IMG/VR virus record: IMGVR_UViG_3300020205_000310
Location: 1 to 36,189 of that record
Direction: 5' to 3' (one strand)
From: a virus
Length of the DNA: 36,189 nt
Every line of letters starts with the position of its first letter. Positions within the stretch are counted from its first letter, which is position 1. Shown here piece after piece: positions 2,177-36,189 of the stretch. The notes beneath the pieces are model-generated. The model searched no databases. It worked only from the letters and a program-made list of their open reading frames with translations, and had not been told where the DNA came from. A program made the position numbers and the translations under genes.

Positions 2177-3241
2177 ATGAAAATTGCCATTTACGCCATC
2201 AGTAAAAATGAAGAACAATTTGTAAAACGTTTCTACGAGTCTGCCAAAAATGCCGATCTTGTTCTTATTGCTGATACTGGTTCTACCGATAACACTGTCA
2301 GTCTTGCCCGGTCTTTGGGCATTACAGTGCATGATATCGCCGTTAAACCTTGGCGTTTTGACAAAGCCCGTGACACTGCACTTAACTTAATTCCCGGAGA
2401 CTATGATGTCTGCATCTCCCTTGACTTGGACGAAGTCATGGAACCCGGCTGGCGTGAAGAAATTGAGCGCGTATGGCAAGAAAACACAACCCGTCTACGC
2501 TATAAATTCGACTGGGGTTGTGGAATTAGCTTTTTCTACGAAAAGATTCATCACCGCACCGGCTACCACTGGCACCACCCAGTTCATGAATACCCCCGCG
2601 CTGACAACCGTACCAAGGAAGTTTACGCCCACACAGATATGCTGCTAGTCAGCCACCACCCTGATCCCACAAAATCTCGTGGTCAGTACATGCCGCTCTT
2701 GGAATTAGCTGTAGCAGAAGACCCCCGCTGCCCCCGCAATGCGTTCTACCATGCCCGTGAGTTGACGTTTTATTACCGCTGGCAAGATGCGATTGTTGCG
2801 CTTGGCAGATACCTAGACATGCCTGAAGCCAACTGGCAGAACGAGCGTTGCTACGCCATGCGCCTTTTAGCTAAATCTCATGACGAACTGGGTCACTCAG
2901 AAGAAGCCTTGAAGTGGGCACGCCTTGCTGTTGCTGAAGCCCCCGGAACTCGTGAGCCATGGGTAGAATTGTCTATGCAGTGCTACCGCAGATCAATGTG
3001 GGCTGAGTCCTACGCTGCCGCGTTATCTGCTCTAAACATCAAAGATAAACAATTGGTGTATACGATGGACCCATCGGTGTGGACTGAGAAGCCGTATGAC
3101 CTTGCCAGCATTGCTGCATGGAACCTTGGCCTCAAAGATTCTGCTATTGAATTTTGCAAAAAAGCTTTAGAATTCAACCCAACGGACAGCAGGCTTGTAT
3201 CTAATCTTGCGTCTATGGTTCCTACCGTGGAGTTGACATGA
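2177..3241 (+). CDS. family 2 glycosyltransferase with helical-repeat tail
   Basis: The 354-residue protein has a GT-A fold glycosyltransferase domain in residues 1-160. SKNEE (9-13) begins the nucleotide-sugar site, DTGSTDNT (33-40) is the usual second element, and LDLDEVM (82-88) carries the metal-binding D83-x-D85. A His-rich stretch follows (HWHHPVHEY, 131-139), then TPR-like helical repeats in about 185-340 (for example SEEALKWARLAVAEAPG). GT2-plus-TPR proteins transfer sugars to protein or glycan acceptors. Lying between a fibre chaperone and the lysis block, it could glycosylate a fibre or alter the host surface; neither is shown by the sequence. Acceptor and donor are unknown. AAAGGAAAT lies just upstream of the ATG. 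Confidence 0.85.
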   Translation: MKIAIYAISKNEEQFVKRFYESAKNADLVLIADTGSTDNTVSLARSLGITVHDIAVKPWRFDKARDTALNLIPGDYDVCISLDLDEVMEPGWREEIERVWQENTTRLRYKFDWGCGISFFYEKIHHRTGYHWHHPVHEYPRADNRTKEVYAHTDMLLVSHHPDPTKSRGQYMPLLELAVAEDPRCPRNAFYHARELTFYYRWQDAIVALGRYLDMPEANWQNERCYAMRLLAKSHDELGHSEEALKWARLAVAEAPGTREPWVELSMQCYRRSMWAESYAAALSALNIKDKQLVYTMDPSVWTEKPYDLASIAAWNLGLKDSAIEFCKKALEFNPTDSRLVSNLASMVPTVELT

Positions 3242-13300: not shown

Positions 13301-16300
13301 ATGGCGACACTTGAACAGCTACGGTCTTTATTCCCTGACGCTGGGTCTGACTCTGACGTTATTAAATCGGCGGCAAAAGAGTTTGGACTTAGCCCTGCTC
13401 AAATTGCAACTGATATTGGGTATGACATCAGTAAACCTGGTTTTGTATCGGACGTTAAACGTGGTACCGGCCAAGTCATTGGTGCGTTTGGATCAACTGC
13501 AAGAGACCTTGGATTGCCCAATGTTGGTAAAGCTGTTGAAGGTTACGGCGAAGACATTCAATTTAGAAACCCGTCACAAATCAATACGGTTAAGCAGGCC
13601 TTATCCAGCCCACTTACTACTGCACGTGAAGCACTGGGCGAAGTCGTACCTCAGATTGGCTCGTCCACTGCGTTTGGCTTAGGCGGTCGTTTTATTGGCG
13701 GAGCAATTGGTTCGTTGGCTGGCCCTGGCGGAACTCTACTTGGACAAAGTCTTGGCGCTGCTGGCGGTGCATATGTCGGTAACTTAATCCAAGAATACGG
13801 TGGCATTCGCTCTGAACAACGCGAACAAGGTATTGAAGATAAGAAACGTGCCTTAGGAACCGGTGCTGCAGCTGCGGCTTTAGATACAGCGTTTGGTACT
13901 GAACGCGTTGTCAATAAATTTTTAACCAAGGGCTCTGACATTCTGGCGCGTGAAGCGGGAACCAGTCTTTTAAAGAACGTTGGTAAACAAACTGCTATTG
14001 GTCTTGGCACTGAAGCTTTGACAGAGACTGGCCAGACTGCACTTGAGCGGTATGGTGCTTACAAAGAATTGACTGGTGACGAAGCCCTTAACGAGTATGG
14101 CTTAGCTGCTATCAAAGGCGGTATTGGCGGTGGTGTTATTCGTGGTGGCTTGTCTGCTATTGCTGGTGAGCGCCCAATCCAAAGTGGTAACGATATCCAA
14201 CAGGCGTTTAGTCAACCTGACGTCAGCGGCACACCCACATCCAATATATTGCCTCCACCCCCACCCCCTCCCGCGCCTAATGTTGTAACACCTGCAAACA
14301 ACCCAGACCCAGTAGCCCGTATGGCTGAGCTAGAGGGTTTGACCAAGGGCGCAAATGGTCGTCTGTTGACTGACGTAGAAAATCAAGAATATCAAGCACT
14401 CAAAGCTCAAGCAGCAACTCTGACACCCCCCGCTGTAACAGGCGGCACAACAGATATTGCTCAGCAGACTCAAGCCGCTGCTGCTGAAAATCAGCAAGTG
14501 CAAGAAGCACAGCAAAAGTTAGTCAGCCGTGAAGAAGTGTTTGGCAAAGTAGCCACACTGTACAATCCAGAGAATCCAACTTCGTTAAACATATTTGGGC
14601 AAAACATTGAAGGCCCACGTGTTGAAACATTTGGTAATCGTTTTGCTACTGTATTTAATACACTGCCCCCGCACGTTCAGACACTTGCTCAAGCTATTAC
14701 ACAAGCAAACAAAGCGTTTGCTACGCCTGAAAAGCCAAGCCCACTGGTCAGTTTTAGTTTTAACGCTAACAACCCAGTAACTTCTGCTGAGAAAGCGCTT
14801 GAAGCCTTAGGTAAGGTGATGACCAAGTTCCAGATTGACCACGTTCAATCATTGGATGAAGCAGTACAGATTCTCAACAAGCTCTCGACGACTACCAAAG
14901 GTAATCAACTGGAGCAACTTAACGCCATCTACGAAGCCATTACTGGCCAAGATACAGATGGATTCACAGCAGCACAAGCCACTAAGGCGGAAAAAGGAGC
15001 TAAAGATGGAAAATTGCCATTGCAAACAACTACCGGGCTGGGAGCAGTATCAGTCGAAGGCGGAACAGGACAAGCAAATGATGGAAACGATGGGAATGTA
15101 CAATCCAGCAACGTTCAATCCGTCGGGACAGGAAGTCTCCCTGCAGGATCGCTTGGCCTCCAAACTGGACAGCAGGCAGGAGAAGGAATACGGACTGGCA
15201 CCGGTGCAGACACCAGTGTTGTCGATGGTAATGCGTCGACGCAAGTAATAGGAGCTACAAATGAACAAGCCAGCCAAAGCGCTTTGGGTGGCGGGGAAAC
15301 ATCCGGTCAATCCCAGCAAGCCGGTGCAGCCAACTTGGATCAACAATCTGTTCAAGATGGCTCAAGAACGTATGACCCCCGTATTACCTTCTACTCAACC
15401 GACCTCAGCCACATCTCCAGCGAACGTCGCATCGAAATAATTTCTGATCTGTTATTAAAAGTTTTAGCTCCCAAGCAAGAACGTAAAAATACAGTCCCCG
15501 CAGCAACGCGGGCAGAGATTCTGCGATTGGCTTTATTGGAACAATTCCGCCATACAGACATTGCAGCATATACAGGCCTTAAAGTAGACGCTGTGCAAAA
15601 ACAACTTGAGCGCATGGGCGTTAAGTTGGTTGATGGTGAATTCCAAGTAATCGACCCTGAGTTTGCAGCTCGTATTGTTGCGACTGCTACTTCATATCGT
15701 TCGCCTGAGTTTCCTGATGGAATTGGCCAAGGCGAGCTGTCCGGTTTATACAACACTCGTTATGAAGGTGAAGAGCAATCTGCCGCATCCTTAGCAGAAG
15801 AACTTGAAGCCGGAGAACAAGAAGGTAAACCTGGGGCCAAACTGCAAGAAGAACTAGGTGGTAAAGAAGACGCTGAAGGTCAAACCATGGGCACGGTATC
15901 CACTGCGGGTGGCAGCCAAGGTGCTGTAGATAGTGAAGCCGCTGCGTTTTTTGATAAAGTTGAAAAGCTCCAAACAGAACTGGAAGCATTGCCTCCTAAA
16001 GACCCGCGTCGTGCGGCCAAAGCAGAACAGCTTCAAAAATTGTGGGCTGACTATGCTAAGTCACAAGAAAAGCGCAGAGCCAAGGGCGAGGCTGTTGTAG
16101 AAGAAGGAGACGAAAATGCCGTTCAAGAGTCAAGCACAGAGGAAGTTCCTGTTCAAAAACGAACCGGAGGTGGCAAAAAGGTGGGCAAAGGAAACGCCCA
16201 AGGAGGCAAAGCTGCCGGAAAAGCTGAAGTCAAACAAGAAGCCAAGCCCGAAGAAATAAAAACCCCCGCTGAAGAGTGGGCCAATCTGTCTAAATTAGCT

Positions 16301-19300
16301 CCGGAACTACCTCCATATGACGTTCTTACAAACTCTGAAAAATCTCGGTGGGATGATCTCGTCCGCCGTGGACAAGCTAACCTTGCTGCTGCTGTCAAAA
16401 TTATCGGTGAAAGTGCTCAACCTGCTGGCACAACGGTGGCCAACCAAGGGCCTCAGGCAACGGGCGCTACTGGAACTACTGAAGCGGTAACGCCCAAGTT
16501 TGGTTCAGACCAAGCAGTTGTTAAGAATCCATACACCGCTGCTGAACTAACTACAGAGATTGAAAACTTTATACGTGCTGACATTTTTGACCGCAAGCTG
16601 GTCATTGTTGACAGCATTGAAGACCTACTTAACTCACGCCTGGATGACTTGCGTGCATTGGCTAAAGCCATTAGCGATAAAGGTGCGTATGGTGTTGCTG
16701 CTGATGGCACTGCGTATTTGATTGCCAATCGCATTAGTAAAGGTGAAGGTCGTGCTAAGTTTATGCACGAAGTCGGGGCCCACTTAGGCCTTGAGAACCT
16801 GTTGCCTACAGTTGTCTATGACAAACTGGTCGACCAATTAGAAACATGGGCTGCAGCAAATGATGGCTCACTTGAATCTAAGTTGGCTAACAAAGCTAGA
16901 GAACGTGTAGGTTACGCTGCAACGCCTACTGTAGACCAACGCAATGAATTGTTGGCTTACTTTGTTGAAGAAGCCATGCTGGCGGGTGTTGATCCTACGG
17001 CTACTGCAAAAGAATCAGGTCCGTTGTACGCATGGTTCCGCACACTATGGGCAGCATTTAAAGTTGCGGTTCGTCGCCTTGGATTTAAACCTGAAAAGCT
17101 AACAGCCCAAGACGTGGTTAATATGGCCTACGGTGCCGCCCGTTTGGAAATGTCTGGCACATGGCACGGTACTGCTGCTACGTACCGTAAATTCAACCAC
17201 AACTTTATGAGTACTGGCGAAGGTGCCCAAGCTTACGGTTGGGGTTCTTATCTTGCCCAAGCCGTTGGTATCGGTAAAGGTTACTGGTGGAATGACGTTA
17301 AGCGGAAAGAAATATCTACTGTTGAAAATACAATTAAACAATATGTTGGATGGCGCTTTGAAGAATCAGTTTTGCATCCAGAAGACAGACAAGAAATTGC
17401 CTACGCAGGTTCGCAAATAAAAGTAGCTAAGGACTTAGCAGAAGCAGTTTCTATGAATCCGGCTGAGTATGCGACGCCCGGTTATTTAACGCGCCGTTTA
17501 GTTGAAGCAGGGGTGGACTACATCAAATTAATTTCGCCAACAGGAGAAAAGAAAACTGTTCGAATTGCTCCCCCCGCTGGTAATTTGATGCGTGTTGACA
17601 CTGCTGTATCCAACAGCGAAATGCTTGATTGGGATGCTTCATTTGCTGACCAGCCGCAACTTGTTCGGGACTTTGTCAAAGGCGAGGCTGCCACAATTAA
17701 AGCCATGAACGACAATGGTGCCAGTATTCGTATTAAAAATGGCGAGGATATTTATAAGTATTTGATTCTAAAGTTCTGGGTTGCAAACAACTTTAATGGC
17801 TCGTGGAAAAATGCAACGCCTGAACAGCGTATGGAAGTCAAGAAGCAGTCGTCCAAGTATTTGGAAGCAAACGGCATTCAGGGTATTCGTTTCTTAGATG
17901 CCAACAGCCGTACCCCAACAGCGCTTGACCGCTCTATTGTTTTTGATGGTAAGAAATACACACGCGATGCTTTAGTTGCCCAATCTAAAAACGCTCGTGC
18001 TTTGTCAATTGATGAGCAAATCCCGTTTACCATCATGCGTCATTTGTTGCGCAACACAGTGGCCGAATTCCGCCAAGAACTGCAAGCCAGACAAGAAAGA
18101 TATATAGCAACATTTACAGATTCTCTTGTTAAATCCTTTAGAAAATCAAACTTTCCAGCTGTGGCTGATATAAGAGAACGTGCGCAAAAATCAGCAAGCA
18201 CAACGTATGAAGCTAAGTTATTGGCGTGGCTTGATGCAAATGAAAGCAAAATAAAGATTGTTGACGGCAATCAAGCCCCTGTCACGCGTAACCTTGTTAT
18301 ATTCAATGAGAAGAACATTCAACGCGTTGGCTCAGAAGTTAGTGCTAATAGAGAGCGCATGAAGTTTGGTATTGCTGGCCAACGTTCGTTTGACAACTTA
18401 GACCCTGCCGAAGCCAATAGACTTAAAGCCCAGTTGGTAAAAGCCAAACTGATGGCAGCTGCTGGCAACGGCGCAGACAAGACGTGGACTGAGACCGGAT
18501 GGTTCAAAGGTGTAGACGGTAAATGGAAATATGAAATTCCTGATACCAACGCTAAGTTTAAGCCGCAAAAAACTAACGGTATTGAAGGCAAGGTAAAAGT
18601 AGATGAATTCTACGATCTAGAAGATATCCTTGATCACCCAGCTTTATTTAAAGCATACCCGCAGCTCAAAGATTACCAAATAATGTTTGATCAAGACTTG
18701 CCGCCTAACAATGCAAGTTTTAATGCTTTCCAAGGAAAGATAACAATGTCTGGGCAGGACTGGGCTGATATGCCTACGCTACTGCATGAACTCCAACACG
18801 CTATCCAGTATATTGAAGGGTTTACTCGAGGCGGTTCTTCAGCCTCAATTGCCGATCCATTTGCGTTAAGTTCACTTATTAAATTTCAAGCAATTCTGGA
18901 ACAAAGACAACAAAAAAATGGCGCTAGAGTTGCTGAAGAAATTGTTGGGTTTATGCAGTTGTGGGACGACGATGTTAACGCGGCTCAACTTGCCCTTGCA
19001 ACAAACACTGACCCAAGCCGCAAGGCAACGCTTCAGATGGACTTAGACAGAAAGATTGATGAGTACGTCACAGCCGCAAAAGACACTTTAGAGAATTTTA
19101 ATATTTCTGAAGACCAACTACGAGGTTATTTGTATTCGGGTATTGCAGGCGAACAAGAAGCGCGCTTAGTAGAAGACCGACTTAAGTTGTCAGACACGCA
19201 GCTAAAATACACACTTCCTAGACTGCCATATGATGAACGTGCCACGCTGTTCACAGATAAAACTGGCATGTCCATGAAGTTTGGTGTTACTCCACCAGCT

Positions 19301-22114
19301 ACCGTTGACAGAGCAATCAGTGTGCTGCCAAAGCCACTACAAAAATCAACGCGTGGTATTGTGACCAACCTACTCCATCAAGCCAAGCGTGGTTTGTATG
19401 CGTCTGCAATTACCGAAGACTTAGCTGGCATGGCTAAAAAGTACATGCCTTCGGTGACCAAGTATCTAGAAGCCCAGTACGCACGTCAGGCTACCCGCTT
19501 GACTTTTGAAAAGCGTATTGAAAACATCTTGGCTGCTTATGACAAATTACCTCAAAACCTACAAGGCGAAGGTAAAGGCAGCGTCAATGAATATATTCAT
19601 GACTCGACACGCGAGAAGAAGTGGGGCTATTACCCAGGTGAGCAGCAAATTGGGACTAAGTTATTCCAAGTAGACGAAGACTTCAAGAAACGCTTTGACG
19701 CTTTCCCAGCTGCCGCACAGCAGGTTATTAAAGACGTGTTCCGCCATGGCCACGATGCTTTGACACTTAAACAGCAAGCAGCTGAGAACGCAGTGAACCG
19801 CGAGTTTGAAGCTCGTATTAAAGCTGCCGCCAACGATGCTGATCTGTTACAGCAGATTGCCAAAGAGAAGAAGCAGATGCTTAAACGCATCACTAGTATT
19901 CGCAATGTTAGCGTGGGTGACCCTTATGCGTACCTTGGACGTTACGGTGATTATGTTGTAGTTGCCAAGTCTAAAGAGTTCATTGCTTATGAAGAAGCTG
20001 CCAAGGGTACTCAAGCTCGCGTAGGCGCTGACTCTATTACTGGTGACCCACAGCAAGCCAAGAACTGGTTGCAAGAGAACGTAGCCAACCCAATGCATTA
20101 CGTCGTTCAGTTTGCTGAAACGCAAAACGAAGCCGATGAAATTGCCGCTCAGTTGCAAGCCACTGGTCAATATGACATACAGCCTGAGGATGCAGGTATT
20201 AAAGAAGCCAATGCGTCTTACGTGGGCGGCTCGGATATTCACCTTGCTGTGGCCCGTTTGCGCAACATGGCCTCGCGCTCAGAGTCTACTGATGACAAGT
20301 TAGACAAAGCAATTGCTGATCTGTATCTGATGACTGTTGCTGATGCCAGTGCTCGTGCCTCTGAACTCCAGCGTAAAAACGTTGCAGGCGCAGACAAGAA
20401 CATGATGCGTAACTTGGCTACCAGTGGTCGTGCGGATGCACACTTCTTGGCTACGATGGAACACAGTGATGAGATTAATGACTCACTAGAAGCCATGCGC
20501 AATGAGGCTCGTAATGATCGTCGCGAAGCCATGCCGATGTATAACGAACTGTTTATACGTCACGCGAACAGCATGAACTACCAGCCTGTTGGCGACTTGG
20601 CTACTGCCCTGACACGCATGACAACATTGTGGACTTTGTCTACTAACCCAGCGTTCTATCTCCAGCAGGTGCTTCAGACTTCCGTACTGTCCCTGCCGTT
20701 TATGGCGGGTCGTCTAGGTTACTTCCGTTCTGCTCGGGCAATCAAGCGTGCTTACGGTGACATGTCTGAGTTGGTTAAAGGCTTGGGAGTTAATGAGCAC
20801 ATTAACTTTGATAAGGCCCCCGCAGATGTGCGCAACATGCTCAACACACTGGTTGGCATGGGTAAGATTGACCTTGGTATCGACGCTGAAGCCAAGGCGC
20901 GCACAGGCGAAGACGGCGTGCTTGGTAAAGTAATGCTCAAGCTGCAAGGTGTTAATACACGTATTGAGTCAATCAACCGTGCCACTGCTGCCATCGCTGC
21001 TTACCGTGGGTATTTAGATCGCTATAAGAACGGTGATACGGCTGCGGCTACCAAGTACGCGGCTGATGTAGTGTCCAACACGCACGGCTCTTACGATGGA
21101 TTTAACACACCTCGTATCATGTCAGGCGATGTGGGTAGAGTTGCGTTGCAATTCAAACGCTTCCAGATCATTCAGCTGTCTATGTTAGCCAAGCTGATTC
21201 ATACTTCATTTAAAGGTGCAAGCGCAGATGAAAAAGCTGTAGCTCGTGCTTCACTGAAGTTTATCGTGGCTCACATGGCTGTACTTGGCGGTGCACTTGG
21301 TGTACCGTTTGTCTCCCAAGCCGCTTGGATTCTGTCTAAAGTGTTTGGTGATGAGGACGAGCCCGATGATTACGAGTACAAACTGCGTCGCATGATAGGT
21401 GACGGCCCTGCCGCTGACCTGTTGCTTCGTGGTGTACCTGCCGCATTAGGCTTAGAGTCTTTGGGTAAGAAGTTATCCATGGAAAACGTTGCGTCTCCAT
21501 TTGGTCCTTTTGTAGACCCCGATATAACTTCTCGTACTGGTGCTGAAAAAATGTTAGTGGGGATGATGGGCCCAGCCGCTAATATCGGGCTGAAGTTTAC
21601 AGACGCGCTTGGCATGATGACCAAGGGTAATTACTATAAAGGCCTAGAGTTGGCGTTGCCTAATGGCGTAGCCAATGTGATGAGGGGCATGCGTTTTGCC
21701 AATGAAGGCATTACGATGCGTAATGGGGACTTGGTGTTAAAGCCTGAAGATGTCAGCCTAATTGATGCTGCATTCCAAGCTGTTGGTCTCCCCACAACGA
21801 CCATTACTGATAGACAATACACACAGAAAGTTGTTGTCGAATTTGACAAGTTCTATTCTGAGCGTGCGGCTGATATTAAACGTAGTTATGTGGAAGGTTC
21901 TCGAGACAGTGACTCAGCAGCAATGGCTGAAGCACGTGAAGACTGGCAGAAATTGCAGGAGTCGAGAGTTAAGAACGGTTACAAGCGTCAGTCAATGTCT
22001 GAGTTGTTCCGTGCACCAGCTGAAGCGCGTAAGCGTGAGCGTGGTGTTGTTGGTGGTGTAGAAACCACTAAATCAAATCGTAGGTTTGTCGAGCAAGTAA
22101 GCTCAGTTTCTTAA
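13301..22114 (+). CDS. 2937-residue giant polyvalent protein, PLxRFG type, probably ejected into the host
   Basis: The chain, in order, has these parts: a glycine-rich hydrophobic region (about 125-165); a proline run (about 317-327) and Gln/Gly/Ser linkers; a helix-turn-helix-like segment (about 740-772, ILRLALLEQF through VDAVQKQLERMG); a zincin-like HEVGAH (1156-1161) followed by ELLAYFVEEAM; and an ADP-ribosyltransferase-like polyvalent domain with HGT (1289-1291), STGEGAQAYGWGSYLA (1304-1319), GIRFLDANSR (1528-1537) and NLVIFN (1664-1669). After these come a second zincin HELQH (1829-1833) with EGF-x-RGG after it, a degenerate PLxRFG motif YLGRYGDYVVVA (from 2211), LQFKRF (2616-2621), and a hydrophobic stretch at about 2654-2680. 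These are hallmarks of large polyvalent proteins, which enter the host with phage or plasmid DNA. Each activity is inferred from motifs only. Confidence 0.8.
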   Translation: MATLEQLRSLFPDAGSDSDVIKSAAKEFGLSPAQIATDIGYDISKPGFVSDVKRGTGQVIGAFGSTARDLGLPNVGKAVEGYGEDIQFRNPSQINTVKQALSSPLTTAREALGEVVPQIGSSTAFGLGGRFIGGAIGSLAGPGGTLLGQSLGAAGGAYVGNLIQEYGGIRSEQREQGIEDKKRALGTGAAAAALDTAFGTERVVNKFLTKGSDILAREAGTSLLKNVGKQTAIGLGTEALTETGQTALERYGAYKELTGDEALNEYGLAAIKGGIGGGVIRGGLSAIAGERPIQSGNDIQQAFSQPDVSGTPTSNILPPPPPPPAPNVVTPANNPDPVARMAELEGLTKGANGRLLTDVENQEYQALKAQAATLTPPAVTGGTTDIAQQTQAAAAENQQVQEAQQKLVSREEVFGKVATLYNPENPTSLNIFGQNIEGPRVETFGNRFATVFNTLPPHVQTLAQAITQANKAFATPEKPSPLVSFSFNANNPVTSAEKALEALGKVMTKFQIDHVQSLDEAVQILNKLSTTTKGNQLEQLNAIYEAITGQDTDGFTAAQATKAEKGAKDGKLPLQTTTGLGAVSVEGGTGQANDGNDGNVQSSNVQSVGTGSLPAGSLGLQTGQQAGEGIRTGTGADTSVVDGNASTQVIGATNEQASQSALGGGETSGQSQQAGAANLDQQSVQDGSRTYDPRITFYSTDLSHISSERRIEIISDLLLKVLAPKQERKNTVPAATRAEILRLALLEQFRHTDIAAYTGLKVDAVQKQLERMGVKLVDGEFQVIDPEFAARIVATATSYRSPEFPDGIGQGELSGLYNTRYEGEEQSAASLAEELEAGEQEGKPGAKLQEELGGKEDAEGQTMGTVSTAGGSQGAVDSEAAAFFDKVEKLQTELEALPPKDPRRAAKAEQLQKLWADYAKSQEKRRAKGEAVVEEGDENAVQESSTEEVPVQKRTGGGKKVGKGNAQGGKAAGKAEVKQEAKPEEIKTPAEEWANLSKLAPELPPYDVLTNSEKSRWDDLVRRGQANLAAAVKIIGESAQPAGTTVANQGPQATGATGTTEAVTPKFGSDQAVVKNPYTAAELTTEIENFIRADIFDRKLVIVDSIEDLLNSRLDDLRALAKAISDKGAYGVAADGTAYLIANRISKGEGRAKFMHEVGAHLGLENLLPTVVYDKLVDQLETWAAANDGSLESKLANKARERVGYAATPTVDQRNELLAYFVEEAMLAGVDPTATAKESGPLYAWFRTLWAAFKVAVRRLGFKPEKLTAQDVVNMAYGAARLEMSGTWHGTAATYRKFNHNFMSTGEGAQAYGWGSYLAQAVGIGKGYWWNDVKRKEISTVENTIKQYVGWRFEESVLHPEDRQEIAYAGSQIKVAKDLAEAVSMNPAEYATPGYLTRRLVEAGVDYIKLISPTGEKKTVRIAPPAGNLMRVDTAVSNSEMLDWDASFADQPQLVRDFVKGEAATIKAMNDNGASIRIKNGEDIYKYLILKFWVANNFNGSWKNATPEQRMEVKKQSSKYLEANGIQGIRFLDANSRTPTALDRSIVFDGKKYTRDALVAQSKNARALSIDEQIPFTIMRHLLRNTVAEFRQELQARQERYIATFTDSLVKSFRKSNFPAVADIRERAQKSASTTYEAKLLAWLDANESKIKIVDGNQAPVTRNLVIFNEKNIQRVGSEVSANRERMKFGIAGQRSFDNLDPAEANRLKAQLVKAKLMAAAGNGADKTWTETGWFKGVDGKWKYEIPDTNAKFKPQKTNGIEGKVKVDEFYDLEDILDHPALFKAYPQLKDYQIMFDQDLPPNNASFNAFQGKITMSGQDWADMPTLLHELQHAIQYIEGFTRGGSSASIADPFALSSLIKFQAILEQRQQKNGARVAEEIVGFMQLWDDDVNAAQLALATNTDPSRKATLQMDLDRKIDEYVTAAKDTLENFNISEDQLRGYLYSGIAGEQEARLVEDRLKLSDTQLKYTLPRLPYDERATLFTDKTGMSMKFGVTPPATVDRAISVLPKPLQKSTRGIVTNLLHQAKRGLYASAITEDLAGMAKKYMPSVTKYLEAQYARQATRLTFEKRIENILAAYDKLPQNLQGEGKGSVNEYIHDSTREKKWGYYPGEQQIGTKLFQVDEDFKKRFDAFPAAAQQVIKDVFRHGHDALTLKQQAAENAVNREFEARIKAAANDADLLQQIAKEKKQMLKRITSIRNVSVGDPYAYLGRYGDYVVVAKSKEFIAYEEAAKGTQARVGADSITGDPQQAKNWLQENVANPMHYVVQFAETQNEADEIAAQLQATGQYDIQPEDAGIKEANASYVGGSDIHLAVARLRNMASRSESTDDKLDKAIADLYLMTVADASARASELQRKNVAGADKNMMRNLATSGRADAHFLATMEHSDEINDSLEAMRNEARNDRREAMPMYNELFIRHANSMNYQPVGDLATALTRMTTLWTLSTNPAFYLQQVLQTSVLSLPFMAGRLGYFRSARAIKRAYGDMSELVKGLGVNEHINFDKAPADVRNMLNTLVGMGKIDLGIDAEAKARTGEDGVLGKVMLKLQGVNTRIESINRATAAIAAYRGYLDRYKNGDTAAATKYAADVVSNTHGSYDGFNTPRIMSGDVGRVALQFKRFQIIQLSMLAKLIHTSFKGASADEKAVARASLKFIVAHMAVLGGALGVPFVSQAAWILSKVFGDEDEPDDYEYKLRRMIGDGPAADLLLRGVPAALGLESLGKKLSMENVASPFGPFVDPDITSRTGAEKMLVGMMGPAANIGLKFTDALGMMTKGNYYKGLELALPNGVANVMRGMRFANEGITMRNGDLVLKPEDVSLIDAAFQAVGLPTTTITDRQYTQKVVVEFDKFYSERAADIKRSYVEGSRDSDSAAMAEAREDWQKLQESRVKNGYKRQSMSELFRAPAEARKRERGVVGGVETTKSNRRFVEQVSSVS

Positions 22115-30235: not shown

Positions 30236-32086
30236 TTATTTGGCATCTGCATAATTATTTCCAATGTCGCCTTCACACGACACTGGTAAGTTGGCGCACC
30301 ACTTCGGAGGCACTGACATGGTCTCAGTCATGAACTCTAACGCCCAGCTGCTGGCGCTTTTAGGTACGACACAAACTACCTCGTCATGTACAGTTAAAGC
30401 AACTTTGTACCGACAGTCAGCCAGTGGGTTGTCGTTCTTGCGCATCTCCATGTCGATCTTCGCCATCTGATCGAACACAACAATACGGGCCAGTGCTTGA
30501 ACTACGTTCTCAACTACCTTACCACCGTATATCTTGACAGGACCATAGCGTCCTCTGTACTCGCATCCATCACCAGACTTACTCAGTTCAGGATAACGAA
30601 TCATCGTGCCGTTGGGTAAGTGAATGCCCTCAGGTGAACAGCGTAGTTCAATACCAACACCAAATGTTGTCTCATAGCCCTGCGCCATTTTGTCCAATGC
30701 TTTCTGTGCATCCTTCCACAGTTCGGCAATCATGGCGTATTTGGTTCGGTATGTGGTTACAGTCTGCTTGGCTTCGCCTGCATTCATATCAACTGAAATA
30801 CCGCCTTGACCAATCTTCAAAGTACCTTGGAACTTATCAGCACCCATGCCGTAGCCTAGGCCCAAGATGCACGTCTTACCAACAAACCGTTCGACCTTGT
30901 CTGCTTTGGTAACAGGCTTGCCGTACACGATCGATGCAAACTTAGAATAAATATCCACACTGTTGCGGAAATCAACTAGCAAGTCTTCTTGACCAGCCAG
31001 CCACGCCACGACACGCGCTTCAATCTGTGCTGAGTCCACTGCAACAAGTACATGATTGTCGGGTACCTTAATTGATCGCCTGAGTGCACCGCCTCGTGGC
31101 AGGTTCTGTAGGTTCATCTTGTCACCACCACTAGCACGCCCAGTGTGAGCACCCCAGTAGTTCAAGAGGATTGGTAACGCACCACGCTCAGAGATACCCA
31201 AGAACGATTCGGTTCTCGTTTCTTCCAGTGTGGATTTGATACCAAGCCTTGCCGCAACTACAGCTTGCACCGCAGTGTTGGGATGTTCAAGCAGTGCTTT
31301 GAACTCATAGTCTGTCTTGCTAAACGCATACGCTTCTTTATTAGTGCGCAGGCTCGTCTTGAGTGGCGGCTCAACGCCTAGCTTCTTCAGCACCTCGGCA
31401 AACTGTGGGTTGGACATGAGTGCGTCTCTACCAATGGACAAGTCAATACGTTCCATCAACTTGGCCTTCTTGTCTTGAACGTTATTCAGGTGAGCAATCA
31501 GTACATCTCTGTCCAACTCAAGCACTGGGTCAGTGAACATCCGAATCATCAGGTCCTGTATGTACAGTTCCTTCGGAGGGTTGTCTTTCTTGAGGATATG
31601 GAATAAGGTCCAAGTAAGTTCTACATCGTTGTTGCAGTAGTTACCGTAGTTGTCAAGGTCCCCAGGGGTAAAGTCACTGCGTCTTTTACCAAGCGCGTTT
31701 ACCACCTCATTGCCTTTGTGCCCATCTGTAAACTTCTCAGCCAATGCTTTGAGTGAACCACCGACAGTCAAGCCCGTGATAGGTCGAGACATTGACAACG
31801 TATCCAAGTAATACTTCGGAGTGATGCCAAACCGCCAAGCAAGTATGGCTCCATCAAATGCCATGTTATGACAGATCAAGTAGTGGTTAGGGATATCCAG
31901 TTCTTCCAGTGCCATTGCTATCTCACCGTTGGAACCAGTTACCCACTGAGCAGGCGCATCGTCAACTTTGTATGAGAAGCCAATGACTTCAAACTGCGGG
32001 TCTCGGATGTACGCCTCGGTCGTCATCTTGGACAGACTAAACTCTTTTGAATAGTAAGTCTCAAAGTCCAGAGTGATATAACTCAT
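30236..32086 (-). CDS. DNA polymerase, family A, with 3'-5' exonuclease
   Basis: The 616-residue replicative polymerase starts at the ATG at 32086, which overlaps the upstream stop (ATGA) and has AGGAAC before it; a GTG 51 bases upstream is less likely. The exonuclease domain has LDFET (D7, E9), CHNMAFDGA (D78) and YCNNDVE (D154). The polymerase domain has motif A VDSAQIEAR (D351, E356, R358), motif B RFVGKTCILGLGYG (R400, K404, Y412) and motif C VHDEV. Spacing fits a compact phage Pol I-type enzyme without a 5' nuclease domain. It would copy the phage genome together with the primase-helicase and SSB-like protein encoded downstream. Confidence 0.93.
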   Translation of the reverse strand: MSYITLDFETYYSKEFSLSKMTTEAYIRDPQFEVIGFSYKVDDAPAQWVTGSNGEIAMALEELDIPNHYLICHNMAFDGAILAWRFGITPKYYLDTLSMSRPITGLTVGGSLKALAEKFTDGHKGNEVVNALGKRRSDFTPGDLDNYGNYCNNDVELTWTLFHILKKDNPPKELYIQDLMIRMFTDPVLELDRDVLIAHLNNVQDKKAKLMERIDLSIGRDALMSNPQFAEVLKKLGVEPPLKTSLRTNKEAYAFSKTDYEFKALLEHPNTAVQAVVAARLGIKSTLEETRTESFLGISERGALPILLNYWGAHTGRASGGDKMNLQNLPRGGALRRSIKVPDNHVLVAVDSAQIEARVVAWLAGQEDLLVDFRNSVDIYSKFASIVYGKPVTKADKVERFVGKTCILGLGYGMGADKFQGTLKIGQGGISVDMNAGEAKQTVTTYRTKYAMIAELWKDAQKALDKMAQGYETTFGVGIELRCSPEGIHLPNGTMIRYPELSKSGDGCEYRGRYGPVKIYGGKVVENVVQALARIVVFDQMAKIDMEMRKNDNPLADCRYKVALTVHDEVVCVVPKSASSWALEFMTETMSVPPKWCANLPVSCEGDIGNNYADAK

Positions 32087-32262
32087 CTTAAGTTCCTGAC
32101 TGTTGCACGCTTTGTCCAACAGGTTACGCAATGCCACTTTGATGGGCTCATTTGAATGCCGCCTTCAGGCGGTTTAGTCTGCCCACACTTGTCGCAAGTC
32201 TTAAGTTGGTGTATGGGTTGCTTAGCCCCTATATCTAATTGTTGTTTAGCGAATCCGTTCAC
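32083..32262 (-). CDS. small zinc-ribbon protein
   Basis: The GTG at 32262 is proposed as start because AAGGAG lies five bases upstream and it reduces overlap with the preceding gene to 17 bases. An in-frame start at 32313 would add 17 residues but overlap 68 bases. The resulting 59-residue product contains TCDKCGQTKPPEGG and WHCVTCW, two C-x2-C pairs that should bind one zinc. The stop overlaps the polymerase start by ATGA. It may bind nucleic acid or a polymerase partner; function unknown. Confidence 0.65.
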   Translation of the reverse strand: MNGFAKQQLDIGAKQPIHQLKTCDKCGQTKPPEGGIQMSPSKWHCVTCWTKRATVRNLR

Positions 32263-33076: not shown

Positions 33077-33313
33077 TTAGTTGTTACGGTCAATGTGCTC
33101 TAATAAACGCTCAAGATAGTGTCGTGCTTTTAATACATCTTTGACACCATCCTTATCCTTGTATCTAGCAATGTACTTAATGACGTTGCCTCGCAAGAAT
33201 CCTTCAAATTCTTCAGCGGTCATCCATGATTGCATGGCTGTCCACGGTTGAACATCTTTGCTTTGGTAGTGATCACCACCGACTTGTGTTTCACTTGCTA
33301 GTGGTTTATTCAT
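33077..33313 (-). CDS. DUF3310 protein
   Basis: The 78-residue product matches DUF3310 (PF11753): VGGDHYQSKDVQPWTAMQSW, then EGFLRGNVIKYIARYKDKDG and KARHYLERLLEHI. This small helical phage family is often found near nucleotide-metabolism and replication genes and sometimes labelled nucleotide-kinase-like; its biochemical role is not established. The ATG at 33313 is chosen for its AAGGA site; a start seven codons earlier would lack one. It overlaps the upstream 64-residue gene by eight bases. Confidence 0.85.
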   Translation of the reverse strand: MNKPLASETQVGGDHYQSKDVQPWTAMQSWMTAEEFEGFLRGNVIKYIARYKDKDGVKDVLKARHYLERLLEHIDRNN

Positions 33314-33500
33314 ATGATTTCCTTTTGGGATCAAGCTTTAGATGAATCATGAGTTGGACTAAACGAGATTCCATTCTCGCTAGTCGTCTCTCAATATGGG
33401 AAAGGCTGTTCAAGTCGTTTGACTTGGGGGAGGCCGCGCCATTTTTCTCCAAGGGCTTTGACCGAAAGAATCCACTGGCGTTGGTAATTGCGTTTAACAT
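33306..33500 (-). CDS. small coiled-coil protein overlapping another small gene
   Basis: The 64-residue reading ends HIERRLARMESRLVQLMIHL followed by KLDPKRKSYE, a clear amphipathic helix like that of short phage proteins of the same ending. The N-terminal 30 residues look unstructured, and the ATG at 33500 has no ribosome-binding site. The first 110 bases overlap the 57-codon reading frame at 33391-33564 in a different frame. Translation may start further in, or depend on coupling. Function unknown. Confidence 0.5.
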   Translation of the reverse strand: MLNAITNASGFFRSKPLEKNGAASPKSNDLNSLSHIERRLARMESRLVQLMIHLKLDPKRKSYE

Positions 33501-33564
33501 GTTTGTTTACTTCATATGATTTAAATGTGTTGATAGCTTTGCGCATGAGTTGGTACTCTGTCAT
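33391..33564 (-). CDS. 57-residue basic protein in a short coupled frame
   Basis: The ATG at 33562-33564 overlaps the stop of the 214-residue gene (ATGA), with AGGAG seven bases upstream, so initiation is well supported. The product runs MTEYQLMRKAINTFKSYEVN, then KHVKRNYQRQWILSVKAL, and ends QPFPY before TGA. It is basic and helical, with no signal peptide or membrane helix. It overlaps the next frame by 110 bases. The start signals are better than those of the overlapping 64-residue frame. No family recognised. Confidence 0.6.
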   Translation of the reverse strand: MTEYQLMRKAINTFKSYEVNKHVKRNYQRQWILSVKALGEKWRGLPQVKRLEQPFPY

Positions 33565-34205
33565 ACTTTAGCTCCTGCCATACGTGCACCGACTGCCGCT
33601 GCTACGGCATTGTCAGTGTCAATCTGTTTAAGAAATTCTGATGCCTTGCTAATTTTCTCAGCAGTGCGCTCAGACTTGACCAACATGCGTTTCATGTAGG
33701 ATTCGGGAATGTAGACACGTACATCGGGCCACAACTTAACTGCTTCGTTAAGTGATTTGCAGTTGTTTAAGAAGTCCTTGATCTGCCGTTGGATAGCTTT
33801 CCACTTTTTGTTGTTCTCGTAGTATGCAACGTCACGTTGCACAATTTCTGCAATGATTGGATGCTCAGAAGGTACATCAAAGTGCGTTGTATAGCTTGAG
33901 GTCTTGGGAGGTGCCGCAGTACCAATAGCAGTCTTGATATGCACCATAGACTTTAGCTCTACTCCATCATGTTGGAACTTAGTGTTGGCACGAAGTTCTT
34001 TGTTGTACACTTTCCAATCATCAGGGATTACATTCTTCAAGTGAAAATGGCTACCCCATATCAATTGCTCGAGGTCATTGGGTAGTGTCTGATAGGTAAT
34101 TTCATCAATTGGTTTCTGAATTAGATTTGCGTCTGCCTCCTTCATGCGAGTAATTTTATTTTCTACATCGTTGATCAGTGTTGCGCTAATAGCTACATAA
34201 GCCAT
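33561..34205 (-). CDS. 214-residue conserved phage protein, function unknown
   Basis: The start at 34205 is chosen because GGAG lies seven bases upstream; a TTG start 51 bases earlier would read through the palindromic leader. The protein begins MAYVAISATLINDVENKITR, an opening I have seen in other phage proteins without a function. A central part has SHFHLKNVIPDDW and YTTHFDVPSEHP, and a long C-terminal helical region follows (WKAIQRQIKDFLNNCKSLNE). No catalytic motif is recognisable. Its position between the VWA-zincin gene and small replication-arm genes gives no clear role. Confidence 0.6.
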   Translation of the reverse strand: MAYVAISATLINDVENKITRMKEADANLIQKPIDEITYQTLPNDLEQLIWGSHFHLKNVIPDDWKVYNKELRANTKFQHDGVELKSMVHIKTAIGTAAPPKTSSYTTHFDVPSEHPIIAEIVQRDVAYYENNKKWKAIQRQIKDFLNNCKSLNEAVKLWPDVRVYIPESYMKRMLVKSERTAEKISKASEFLKQIDTDNAVAAAVGARMAGAKV

Positions 34206-34238
34206 GGTGTTGCTCCGTTTAGTTAGTAAGTTTAGTTC

Positions 34239-34270
34239 ATTATCCGTGATAATCAATAGGGATTAACCCC
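34239..34270. promoter_or_regulatory. paired palindromes in the leader of the 214-residue gene
   Basis: ATTATC (34239-34244) and GATAAT (34248-34253) form a perfect six-base inverted repeat around CGT, flanked by a further TT/AA after one mismatch. Six bases on, GGGATTAACCCC (34259-34270) is a second near-perfect palindrome. Minus-strand GATAAT matches five of six -10 bases, but no good -35 is found at the right spacing. The pair could be a repressor operator or an RNA hairpin controlling the downstream genes. Confidence 0.45.
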
Positions 34271-34274
34271 AAGA

Positions 34275-34652
34275 TCAATACATTGAATGTCTGACAAGAG
34301 ACATTCCAGCGGTCAGGGCAGTATCTTTCAAGAGCCGCAGTCGCATCTCAGGGGTGTAGTGCACCCACTGCCCTTCGTAATAGCCGCTAAGATTTGGCAC
34401 TGCTGTATTGCTTAAGCCTAACTTAACGACCATCTCTGCATCCTTCCCTGTTGGGTTGGAGTAGTCAACATCTTCAGCTTGCACTTGATGGATTACTTTC
34501 ATTCCTGCCAAGTGAAGCTTGAAGTGGTGATCGAACAAGCCCAAGCGAAGCATGACCATGGTTAACTTGTACAGTACCGCAGTCTTTGCCCTCGCTTGAT
34601 TGAATTGTTGTTCGGTTATTACCCGATTAAGACTCGAGTTCGAAGTGGACAT
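34275..34652 (-). CDS. unknown protein after the VWA-zincin gene
   Basis: The start at 34652 gives 125 residues (MSTSNSSLNRVITEQQFNQA and onward) and a 26-base overlap with the VWA gene; an ATG three codons earlier is equally possible, and a still longer reading to 34736 would lie deep inside that gene. The chain is helical (KTAVLYKLTMVMLRLGLFDH), with a middle part VHYTPEMRLRLLKDTALTAG. No motif is recognised. Overlap suggests it is co-produced with the VWA-zincin protein and might be a partner. Confidence 0.55.
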   Translation of the reverse strand: MSTSNSSLNRVITEQQFNQARAKTAVLYKLTMVMLRLGLFDHHFKLHLAGMKVIHQVQAEDVDYSNPTGKDAEMVVKLGLSNTAVPNLSGYYEGQWVHYTPEMRLRLLKDTALTAGMSLVRHSMY

Positions 34653-35739
34653 TTTCACCATAAGGGGCTTCAACGTCACTGCTGATACACCACACGACTG
34701 GATAGCTAGGTGCGTCACCGAAGTCTGTATAGCCATCAGTCAAGCACACAAACACATCGGGGTCGATGCCTTCATTGGCACAGTAATCAAAGCCTGCAGG
34801 CATATGAGTGCCACCGCCTGAATAGAATGTCAACGCTACTTCGTCGCCGCATTCAAACACTTCGTGCTTAACTACGTCAGTGTCGGTATACAAGACATGA
34901 ACCTTGGATGGTCTGCATTGCGTAACGATGCGTGATAGGTGACCGTTGTAGTGATCGAGTTCAACCTGAGAGATTGATCCAGACACATCGACTTGCACAA
35001 CAAGCTCGCCCATCTGTGGCAACTTATCCACGCTAGGCAAGTACACATCAGCAAACCTGCGGTTAGGTCTACGCCACGATTGATTCTGCCTGACCTGCGC
35101 TACGCAGTGCTTCTCAAGAATCTCATACCAAGGGGTCTTGGACTCAAGCATACCTGCGACCAAGTCCTGTAACTTAGCGGATAACTTACCGCGCATCTTA
35201 GCGGCTTGTGCTGCTTCAGCGATCTCGACTTTGATCTGACCCTGCATCTCACGAATCTCGTCAGGTGTCATCTCACGTCCACCATCACCATAGATTACAT
35301 CATCGCCAGTGCCATTGTTGGGAGGACCATCACCACCTTCATTACCATCAGGCAATTCATCATAGATAGTCTCGACTGTCTTATCCTTAGACCCTTTGAT
35401 ATCCACGCAGTTGGGGATACGCTGACCAATATTGCTATCGTCTAGCATATCGTTAATCCATGCATCACCTGCATAGTTCCACTTCTTAGGGTTGCGACTA
35501 CCGAGACGCAGTGCGTGCTGACCCATAACGTGACCGACCTCGTGACATAGACCCCACACCAGTTGCGGTACTTCAAGCTTGTCAATGAAGTCAGGGTTGT
35601 AATAGATACGCGCCTTGCCATCGACTGCCAGTGTTGGGATATCACGTGTCTCAACCATGGGGCGTTTAAGTAGGATGCTTGCCCAGAATGGATGGTCAAG
35701 TACGATTTGTGCTTTGGCTTTGTCTAATTTAGTTGCCAT
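34627..35739 (-). CDS. zincin plus VWA-like protein (DUF2201 type)
   Basis: The 370-residue protein has two domains. Residues 1-115 contain LVWGLCHEVGHVMGQHALRL with HEVGH (66-70) and H75, a zinc peptidase motif matching the putative metallopeptidase of DUF2201 (PF13203). An acidic Gly/Asp/Asn linker (about 130-155) and a helical part follow. Residues about 243-370 are VWA-like (PF09967), with metal site D251-x-S253-x-S255 (VDVSGSIS), T311 (GGGTHM) and D335 (LTDG). In cells such proteins usually act with MoxR-type AAA+ ATPases. The gene immediately upstream is cut by the window edge and is not recognised as such. Substrate unknown. Confidence 0.85.
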   Translation of the reverse strand: MATKLDKAKAQIVLDHPFWASILLKRPMVETRDIPTLAVDGKARIYYNPDFIDKLEVPQLVWGLCHEVGHVMGQHALRLGSRNPKKWNYAGDAWINDMLDDSNIGQRIPNCVDIKGSKDKTVETIYDELPDGNEGGDGPPNNGTGDDVIYGDGGREMTPDEIREMQGQIKVEIAEAAQAAKMRGKLSAKLQDLVAGMLESKTPWYEILEKHCVAQVRQNQSWRRPNRRFADVYLPSVDKLPQMGELVVQVDVSGSISQVELDHYNGHLSRIVTQCRPSKVHVLYTDTDVVKHEVFECGDEVALTFYSGGGTHMPAGFDYCANEGIDPDVFVCLTDGYTDFGDAPSYPVVWCISSDVEAPYGENVHFELES

Positions 35740-35741
35740 GT

Positions 35742-36189
35742 TTAACCTTTAGTTACGTTGAATGTAAATACTTCATTGTGATCAACTGATTCACAAATCC
35801 GTTTCGCTCTGTCCAAGTCTGCTTGGCTTCTTATTAATGGGGTGATCTCTCGTGCAGTCCTTGCATTGATTAGATTGAAGAAGTGGTAGTCATATTGGTG
35901 CTTCTCAAACAGAGTCTCGATCGTACTAGACACCTGTTTACTACGCCATGAGTTGTAGGATTGATCGCCATTCTCCATACGCCACGCGGCAAAGTCACCC
36001 ATGATGAGTTCATGTATCTGAGTTACTTGTGCGGGGTTTAAGTCCTCACCCTTGGCATCGTGGGTCCCATACTCTCTACGAATCTGCAAGCCATGGTAGT
36101 CAGCCAATCCCTTGGTCAGAACCACAGCCACCGATGAGTAACCACCTCGTGCTACACCATCCATGATCATTCGCTTGACTGAGTTCTTC
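35742..36189 (-). CDS. C-terminal part of a cut gene, function unknown
   Basis: The frame is open through the right edge. The first in-frame ATG is at 36170, but KNSVKR codons precede it with no stop, so the gene probably starts outside the window. The visible 148 residues are mixed and charged, with GYSSVAVVLTKGLADYHGLQ, then NPAQVTQIHELIMGDFAAWR and YHFFNLINARTAREITPLIR. The stop lies two bases before the VWA-zincin start, so the two genes are in one operon. Adjacent position makes it a candidate for the C-terminal part of a partner of the VWA protein, but no AAA+ motif is visible in this part. Confidence 0.6.
   Translation of the reverse strand, partial: KNSVKRMIMDGVARGGYSSVAVVLTKGLADYHGLQIRREYGTHDAKGEDLNPAQVTQIHELIMGDFAAWRMENGDQSYNSWRSKQVSSTIETLFEKHQYDYHFFNLINARTAREITPLIRSQADLDRAKRICESVDHNEVFTFNVTKG

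Follow-up and report, generated by a model that had tools for sequence, protein, structure and literature searches.

The window analysed here is a stretch of 36189 b of marine phage DNA that comprises the entire public IMG/VR record IMGVR_UViG_3300020205_000310, which is linear. Its gene content is organized by strand: according to PHROGs, genes for virion components (internal virion protein, tail fibre and structural proteins) occupy the plus-strand half, and the minus-strand half contains small genes alongside those for a primase/helicase, a DNA helicase and a DNA polymerase A. A plus-strand ORF of 2937 aa (13301-22114) exceeds all other genes in length by a wide margin. Among the plus-strand genes of the virion half, the one located at 2177-3241 shows a strong match to phrog_13126, which is named beta-1,4-glycosyltransferase (E 7.9e-101).

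The gene under study encodes a DUF2201 protein and lies in the replication arm, at the record end (Table 1). It had been described in the earlier note as coupled to a cut upstream gene and to a downstream gene, and the layout agrees with this description: 2 bases separate the stop codon of the cut gene from the ATG of the DUF2201 gene, the downstream ORF overlaps the DUF2201 3' end, and all three genes are on the minus strand. The overlap holds for the first three in-frame ATGs of the downstream ORF, being shorter if translation starts at 34661 or 34652. Since the window is the whole record, it is the record end, and not the window, that truncates the upstream gene. No Pfam match was obtained with the partial copy in the window or with full-length copies from relatives. 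Two candidate identities were discarded: a weak PHROG match to endonuclease V (E 0.014; E 0.11 with the full-length protein) was taken as chance, and the possibility that it represents the end of an ATPase was rejected because the full-length copies in relatives constitute a separate 185-aa family with no family match. Further downstream, the conserved 231-aa protein scored 20.2 bits against Nmad5, a nucleotide-modification-associated domain, and stayed below the cut-off of 27.

The DUF2201 protein is 100% identical to those of the nearest relatives (L002/L003), and the cut gene is 87% identical (35742-36188 compared with L003 4558-5115). At the nucleotide level, the record is 89% identical to L003 over its last 200 bases and 92-100% identical across the next 3.4 kb, a drop that possibly marks a recombination edge.

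Table 1. Genes and predicted sites at the DUF2201 locus (window coordinates).
Feature	Position	Strand	Basis or remark
DUF2201 protein, 370 aa	34627..35739	(-)	ORF list, Pfam, PHROGs
Upstream gene, 3' part, 148 aa, runs off the record	35742..36188	(-)	185 aa in L002/L003; clade-specific family
Downstream overlapping ORF, 153 aa from first ATG	34275..34736	(-)	No family
231-aa protein, conserved downstream	33561..34256	(-)	Family in 44 loci
DUF3310 gene (neighbour)	33077..33334	(-)	Pfam E 3e-17
DNA polymerase A with 3'-5' exonuclease domain	30236..32137	(-)	Pfam and PHROGs; marks the replication arm
HExxHxxxxH motif, residues 66-75 (candidate zinc site, predicted catalytic Glu67)	35515..35544	(-)	Conservation
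Asp92 (putative alternative third metal ligand)	35464..35466	(-)	Invariant in 27; 76/77
MIDAS DxSxS, residues 251-255	34975..34989	(-)	77/77
MIDAS T311	34807-34809	(-)	76/77
MIDAS D335	34735-34737	(-)	77/77

Domains and metal sites of the DUF2201 protein

Both Pfam domains of DUF2201 were detected above their curated cut-offs and in the expected order, namely DUF2201_N (PF13203; E 4.9e-45, 154.7 bits, cut-off 23.2) and the VWA-like domain (PF09967; E 3.2e-18, 66.5 bits, cut-off 26.4). They correspond to an N-terminal zincin-like domain, a putative metallopeptidase, at about residues 3-237, and to a C-terminal VWA domain at about residues 246-365. The protein also matched PHROG_1314 (E 1.5e-83). 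Judged from a dN/dS of approximately 0.13-0.16 against the copies in L007, L012, L020 and L047, this is a real gene under purifying selection.

The intact zinc (H66, E67, H70) and VWA metal sites anticipated in the earlier note were borne out by the Pfam domains and the alignments. Indeed, H66, E67, H70, D251, S253, S255, T311 and D335 were invariant in a 27-sequence alignment reaching down to 24% identity, as were H75, N88, D92 and N96. In a set of 77 non-redundant relatives drawn from phages, plasmids and bacterial genomes, the MIDAS residues D251, S253, S255 and D335 were always kept and T311 was missing once. The zinc-site residues were retained in 76 (H66, H70, H75 and D92) or 75 (E67) of the 77 relatives, and the whole HExxHxxxxH motif in 74. 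H75 and D92, both nearly invariant, are the candidates for the third zinc ligand.

An AlphaFold2 model of the protein reached a mean pLDDT of 79.8, and its VWA part a Z of 11.2 to solved VWA domains. A Foldseek search with the whole model retrieved mainly VWA domains, including the MIDAS domain of MDN1 (rank 10) and NorD of NorQD (rank 12); for the zincin half, a weak selecase row was the sole result (rank 47, E 0.27). Nothing relevant was retrieved when solved structures were searched with the protein sequence.

Many records name this protein an HNH endonuclease, a label borne by PHROG_1314 and by RefSeq phage entries such as N4 gp25 (L076 3165-4307). However, no Pfam HNH domain was found in the window protein at E values up to 1, nor in the scanned plasmid and schitovirus relatives, and the conserved residues are those of the zincin motif and the MIDAS. 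The label, widespread as it is, thus looks like a misannotation that has spread, and there is next to no chance that the protein is an HNH endonuclease.

Gene neighbourhood beyond the record end

Of the 55 loci that the search for relatives yielded, 48 (L002-L049) are close, their best segment being no less than 59% identical. In 36/36 close loci with at least 1.8 kb of upstream sequence, genes for an AAA+ ATPase (PHROG_1297) and for a protein of ~297 aa were found upstream, on the same strand and in the same order; grouped at 90% identity of their DUF2201 proteins, these loci form 17 groups. This count leaves aside 12 close loci with less upstream sequence, the fragments L050-L053 without a full gene, and the distant L054-L056. 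PHROG_1297 was detected in 37 of 40 scanned records, and those without it (L016, L017 and L036) have 0.9-1.4 kb upstream. Thus, the ATPase is absent from the window because the record ends before it. The earlier note had suggested looking rightward for an AAA+ gene and for a conserved gene order, and both were present in these 36 loci; an ATPase gene was also found nearby in the 16/16 phage records sampled below. In L002/L003, the order is ATPase, an ORF of 148-160 aa, the ~297-aa gene (DUF3150-like, see below), a small protein, the 185-aa protein (the cut gene) and DUF2201. The ~297-aa gene is absent from the three distant loci, two of which have the ATPase directly upstream; in L056, two partial ATPase matches lie on the opposite side of the DUF2201 gene.

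The clade ATPase, of about 334 aa, matches PHROG_1297 with an E of 5.6e-71. The Pfam AAA_5 cut-off was passed by the ATPases of L042 (23.5, cut-off 22), MinM2 and jumbo phage 30-2, and was not reached by those of L003 and N4, the L003 copy reaching no Pfam AAA cut-off; PHROG_1297 and the profile match given below are the basis for its predicted placement among MoxR proteins. A sub-threshold bpMoxR match was obtained for the L042 ATPase, and no VMAP or beta-propeller domain, as in ternary conflict systems, was found in the neighbours scanned. The small protein occurs in 32 loci and, as a hydrophobic stretch exceeds the usual threshold of 1.6 in 31/33 sequences, it is probably a single-pass membrane protein.

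The ~297-aa protein had no match in Pfam, PF11348 (DUF3150) included. Nevertheless, tblastn with this protein retrieved three 65-kb cyanobacterial phage records, one of which (MinM2) is annotated as DUF3150 (E 5e-11), with the order MoxR ATPase, small gene, DUF3150, three small genes and VWA-like protein. Continuing from the cyanobacterial phage DUF3150, tblastn reached 43 plasmid records. The ATPase, DUF3150-like and VWA-like genes are neighbours on six of the seven plasmids examined (L078, L079, L081-L084), the seventh (L080) having 3.6 kb between the ATPase and the DUF3150-like gene. Comparison of phage and plasmid profiles with hhalign gave a probability of 99.9 for the DUF3150-like proteins (E 2.8e-33, 281 columns) and of 100 for the ATPases (E 7.5e-61), and 0.2 for an unrelated pairing used as control. 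These comparisons identify the ~297-aa protein as a divergent member of a DUF3150-like family. The suffix is used because the PF11348 cut-off was not reached: the profile detected 0/11 when run directly on phage records, and an annotated plasmid DUF3150 relative scored 22.1 bits (cut-off 24.9). The structure model of the DUF3150-like protein is mostly helical (mean pLDDT 61.5), and a structure search with it gave no match at E 0.001. No paper was found in the literature search for DUF3150.

Among 12 bacterial genome loci, 11 have the ATPase and four the DUF3150-like gene (L085, L086, L087 and L089); L085 and L086, neither of them Burkholderiales, had been kept out of profile building. Proteobacterial plasmids, phage MinM2 and some bacterial genomes all show the ATPase-DUF3150-DUF2201 order. 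Burkholderiales and Rhodovastum plasmids, as well as MinM2, share with the window clade the same three families in the same order, and the plasmid DUF2201 proteins are ~27-32% identical to the window protein.

The domains, the intact sites, the gene linkage, the co-occurrence and the relation to the plasmid cassette are directly observed; complex formation, proteolysis and the client are inferred. It seems rather probable that the DUF2201 protein acts as VWA adaptor subunit in a MoxR-like AAA+ remodelling machine, with phage replication or host complexes as its likeliest clients. The other genes of this machine, located beyond the record end, would be those for the AAA+ ATPase, the DUF3150-like helical protein and, in most of the clade, the small probable membrane protein. 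By analogy with NorQ/NorD, the ATPase would form a ring on which the VWA domain docks, gripping the client via its MIDAS metal; ATP hydrolysis would then force a change of conformation on the client by pulling, and its exposed parts could be cut or held by the fused zincin domain. Because the gene sits with replication and nucleotide genes, the clients would most likely be replication or host complexes met before assembly, and a role before assembly is also suggested by the replication-arm position together with the timing of the middle genes of N4.

Distribution among phages and loss of the zinc-site glutamate

The DUF2201 protein matched 507 phage records in tblastn. An ATPase gene was found nearby in all 16 sampled records with DUF2201 (upstream on the same strand in 15, on the other strand in TH18), and a DUF3150-like gene in one (MinM2). 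Its lack in the other 15 phages and in the three distant IMG/VR loci indicates that the ATPase-DUF2201 pair does not need DUF3150, and the pair without the third gene occurs in N4-like and jumbo phages. Two phages with a related polymerase, KPP25 and Rollin, lack both the ATPase and the DUF2201 genes, indicating that presence and absence of the pair go together and that the cassette is no fixed part of that replisome. In the cultured phage RHph_TM3_14A, the ATPase and DUF2201 genes are followed by DNA polymerase I, a RecB-family exonuclease, VRR-NUC and an SNF2 helicase, an order much like that of the window's right arm, with no DUF3150-like gene detectable. In the jumbo phages BF and Munch, the pair lies between genes labelled structural or hypothetical and thymidylate synthase, a setting that weighs against the remodelling machine as described above. 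The jumbo Pseudomonas phage 30-2 has a 498-aa gene between ATPase and DUF2201 (L075 3434-4930), with sub-threshold matches to Vsr/MTES_1575 endonucleases.

The two exceptions at E67 among the 77 relatives are both Schitoviridae: Littlefix, with HLAMH (L103 5977-7203), and OLIVR1, in which the motif is wholly gone (L106 5980-7185). ZX86, added after the 77-set because no relative is closer to the OLIVR proteins, has also lost the predicted catalytic Glu, its motif reading HMLWH (L110 1292-2506). The three proteins are full-length and retain both Pfam domains, DxSxS and a neighbouring ATPase gene; from their sequences, they are natural pseudo-peptidases. This bears on the possibility that the pair is a two-polypeptide ATP-dependent protease, whose ring feeds clients to the zincin domain as the main active part. 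Such a protease would agree with the invariance of HExxH and H75 (27/27) and with the HExxHxxxxH motif in 74/77 relatives, but three phages that dispense with the predicted catalytic Glu while keeping DxSxS and the adjacent ATPase argue against it, making this reading distinctly improbable. Loss of the Glu with the MIDAS kept suggests that ATPase-VWA remodelling is the core activity and proteolysis is optional, and strict MIDAS retention as opposed to occasional Glu loss fits a remodelling core with cutting as an extra. The gene annotated as a 'ClpP-like protease' before the ZX86 ATPase (L111 2680-3435) corresponds in Pfam to AAA (E 3.3e-12), a second AAA protein, and the idea of a replacement protease was therefore dropped.

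Published counterparts and possible clients

The available text of PMC4193335 lists N4 gp24 and gp25 as middle genes and among the 14 core genes of N4-like phages, annotated as 'unknown' and 'vWFA domain', respectively, and that of a roseophage paper describes gp24 as a putative AAA ATPase (PMC2784036). The pair is thus core in N4-like phages (Schitoviridae), coliphage N4 included. N4 gp24/gp25 resemble the window clade in having the same two families in the same order, a location in the middle-gene region and a full-length DUF2201 homologue, but no DUF3150-like gene was detected nearby and N4 belongs to a different phage group. Among the matches listed, phage DUF2201 proteins are ~24-31% identical to the window protein. 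The gp25 of the CRISPRi-ART paper belongs to another phage, as seen in its available text (PMC11879866), and was set aside.

Group 2.2 jumbo phages encode a MoxR and metallopeptidase-vWA pair, that is, the same domain fusion with an ATPase partner as in the window clade, for which a role in virion assembly with processing was proposed (Iyer et al., 2021; PMC7824862). It differs from the window clade in having been published as a pair with that virion-assembly role, no third gene being mentioned in the available part of the paper. Accordingly, the pair could be a virion-assembly chaperone and processing protease that folds and trims structural proteins, a reading that also draws on the binding of ATV p618 (MoxR) to the VWA protein p892 and to virion proteins (available text of PMC4124505) and on the location of the pair beside structural-labelled genes in Serratia phage BF. 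However, the three-gene version occurs on plasmids, which make no virions, so that plasmid carriage argues against a purely virion role. In the window, the cassette gene shares the minus strand with the polymerase, helicase and primase genes, whereas the virion genes identified are on the plus strand. In addition, a replication or nucleotide gene is annotated at 13/16 sampled phage loci (flanks of 4-12 kb), and gp24/gp25 of N4 are middle genes (PMC4193335). We consider a virion-assembly role unlikely.

Cellular counterparts are the MoxR-VWA chaperones NorQ/NorD, RavA/ViaA and CbbQ/CbbO, which combine a MoxR-type ATPase, as is predicted for the window clade, with a VWA partner keeping the MIDAS; the available text on NorQD reports that MoxR-VWA remodelling acts through the MIDAS site (PMC9976466). 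In these systems, the clients are host enzymes and the VWA proteins come from another family, and the N-terminal part of NorD is without obvious homologue, whereas the DUF2201 protein has there a zincin-like domain. ATV p618/p892 likewise pair a viral MoxR ATPase with a VWA partner, but they take part in tail development and lack a metallopeptidase domain, according to the accessible part of PMC7824862. The word DUF2201 was not found in the available part of the eLife 2020 paper on MoxR-vWA ternary systems (PMC7159879).

The earlier note had regarded phage versions as rarely studied. This is fair as regards function, since no published function of, or experiment on, a phage ATPase-DUF2201 pair was found in the literature searched, but the pair itself is already in print for N4-like and jumbo phages. 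Neither a DUF3150-like third gene for this phage clade nor its match to the plasmid cassette nor the zinc-site losses turned up in these searches, and all three appear to be new. The plasmid link and the natural losses raise the question of whether the ATPase, the MIDAS or the peptidase Glu is needed.

Alternatively, the cassette might act as a host take-over or counter-defence factor that disarms a host complex threatening phage and plasmid DNA alike. The occurrence of the cassette in both phages and conjugative plasmids, the timing of the middle genes in N4 (PMC4193335) and the small probable membrane protein in 32 loci would be in line with this idea. Conversely, PADLOC gave no significant match for the 8 proteins tested, its library covering mainly defence and not counter-defence, and core status in N4-like phages over many hosts suggests a general rather than host-specific job. 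We see a host-directed factor of this kind as a possible but unlikely explanation. An NCBIfam search added nothing useful. Somewhat less doubtful, although still tentative, is a wider version of the remodelling machine, in which the AAA+ ATPase, the DUF3150-like protein and the zincin-VWA protein would form a three-component machine common to tailed phages and conjugative plasmids and serving incoming DNA elements as such, for example by remodelling a host replication, membrane or defence complex. Proteolysis would be optional and lost in some schitovirus-type phages, and the cassette would belong to an ancient mobile-element toolkit rather than being a virion chaperone.

The plasmid cassette differs from that of the window clade in its setting, some copies being near type IV secretion or PRTRC genes. 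The Cupriavidus cassette is close to a PRTRC-system gene (L079 1-240), and those of Burkholderia and Caballeronia plasmids adjoin type II/IV secretion ATPase or VirB-type genes (L082 6407-8816; L084 7598-8647). The plasmid genes preceding the cassette (~505-519 aa) have no Pfam match. Among bacterial genomes, the DUF2201 copy of a Terriglobia MAG (L096 5989-6671) is split across two frames, with no ATPase match nearby, and is perhaps a decaying copy.
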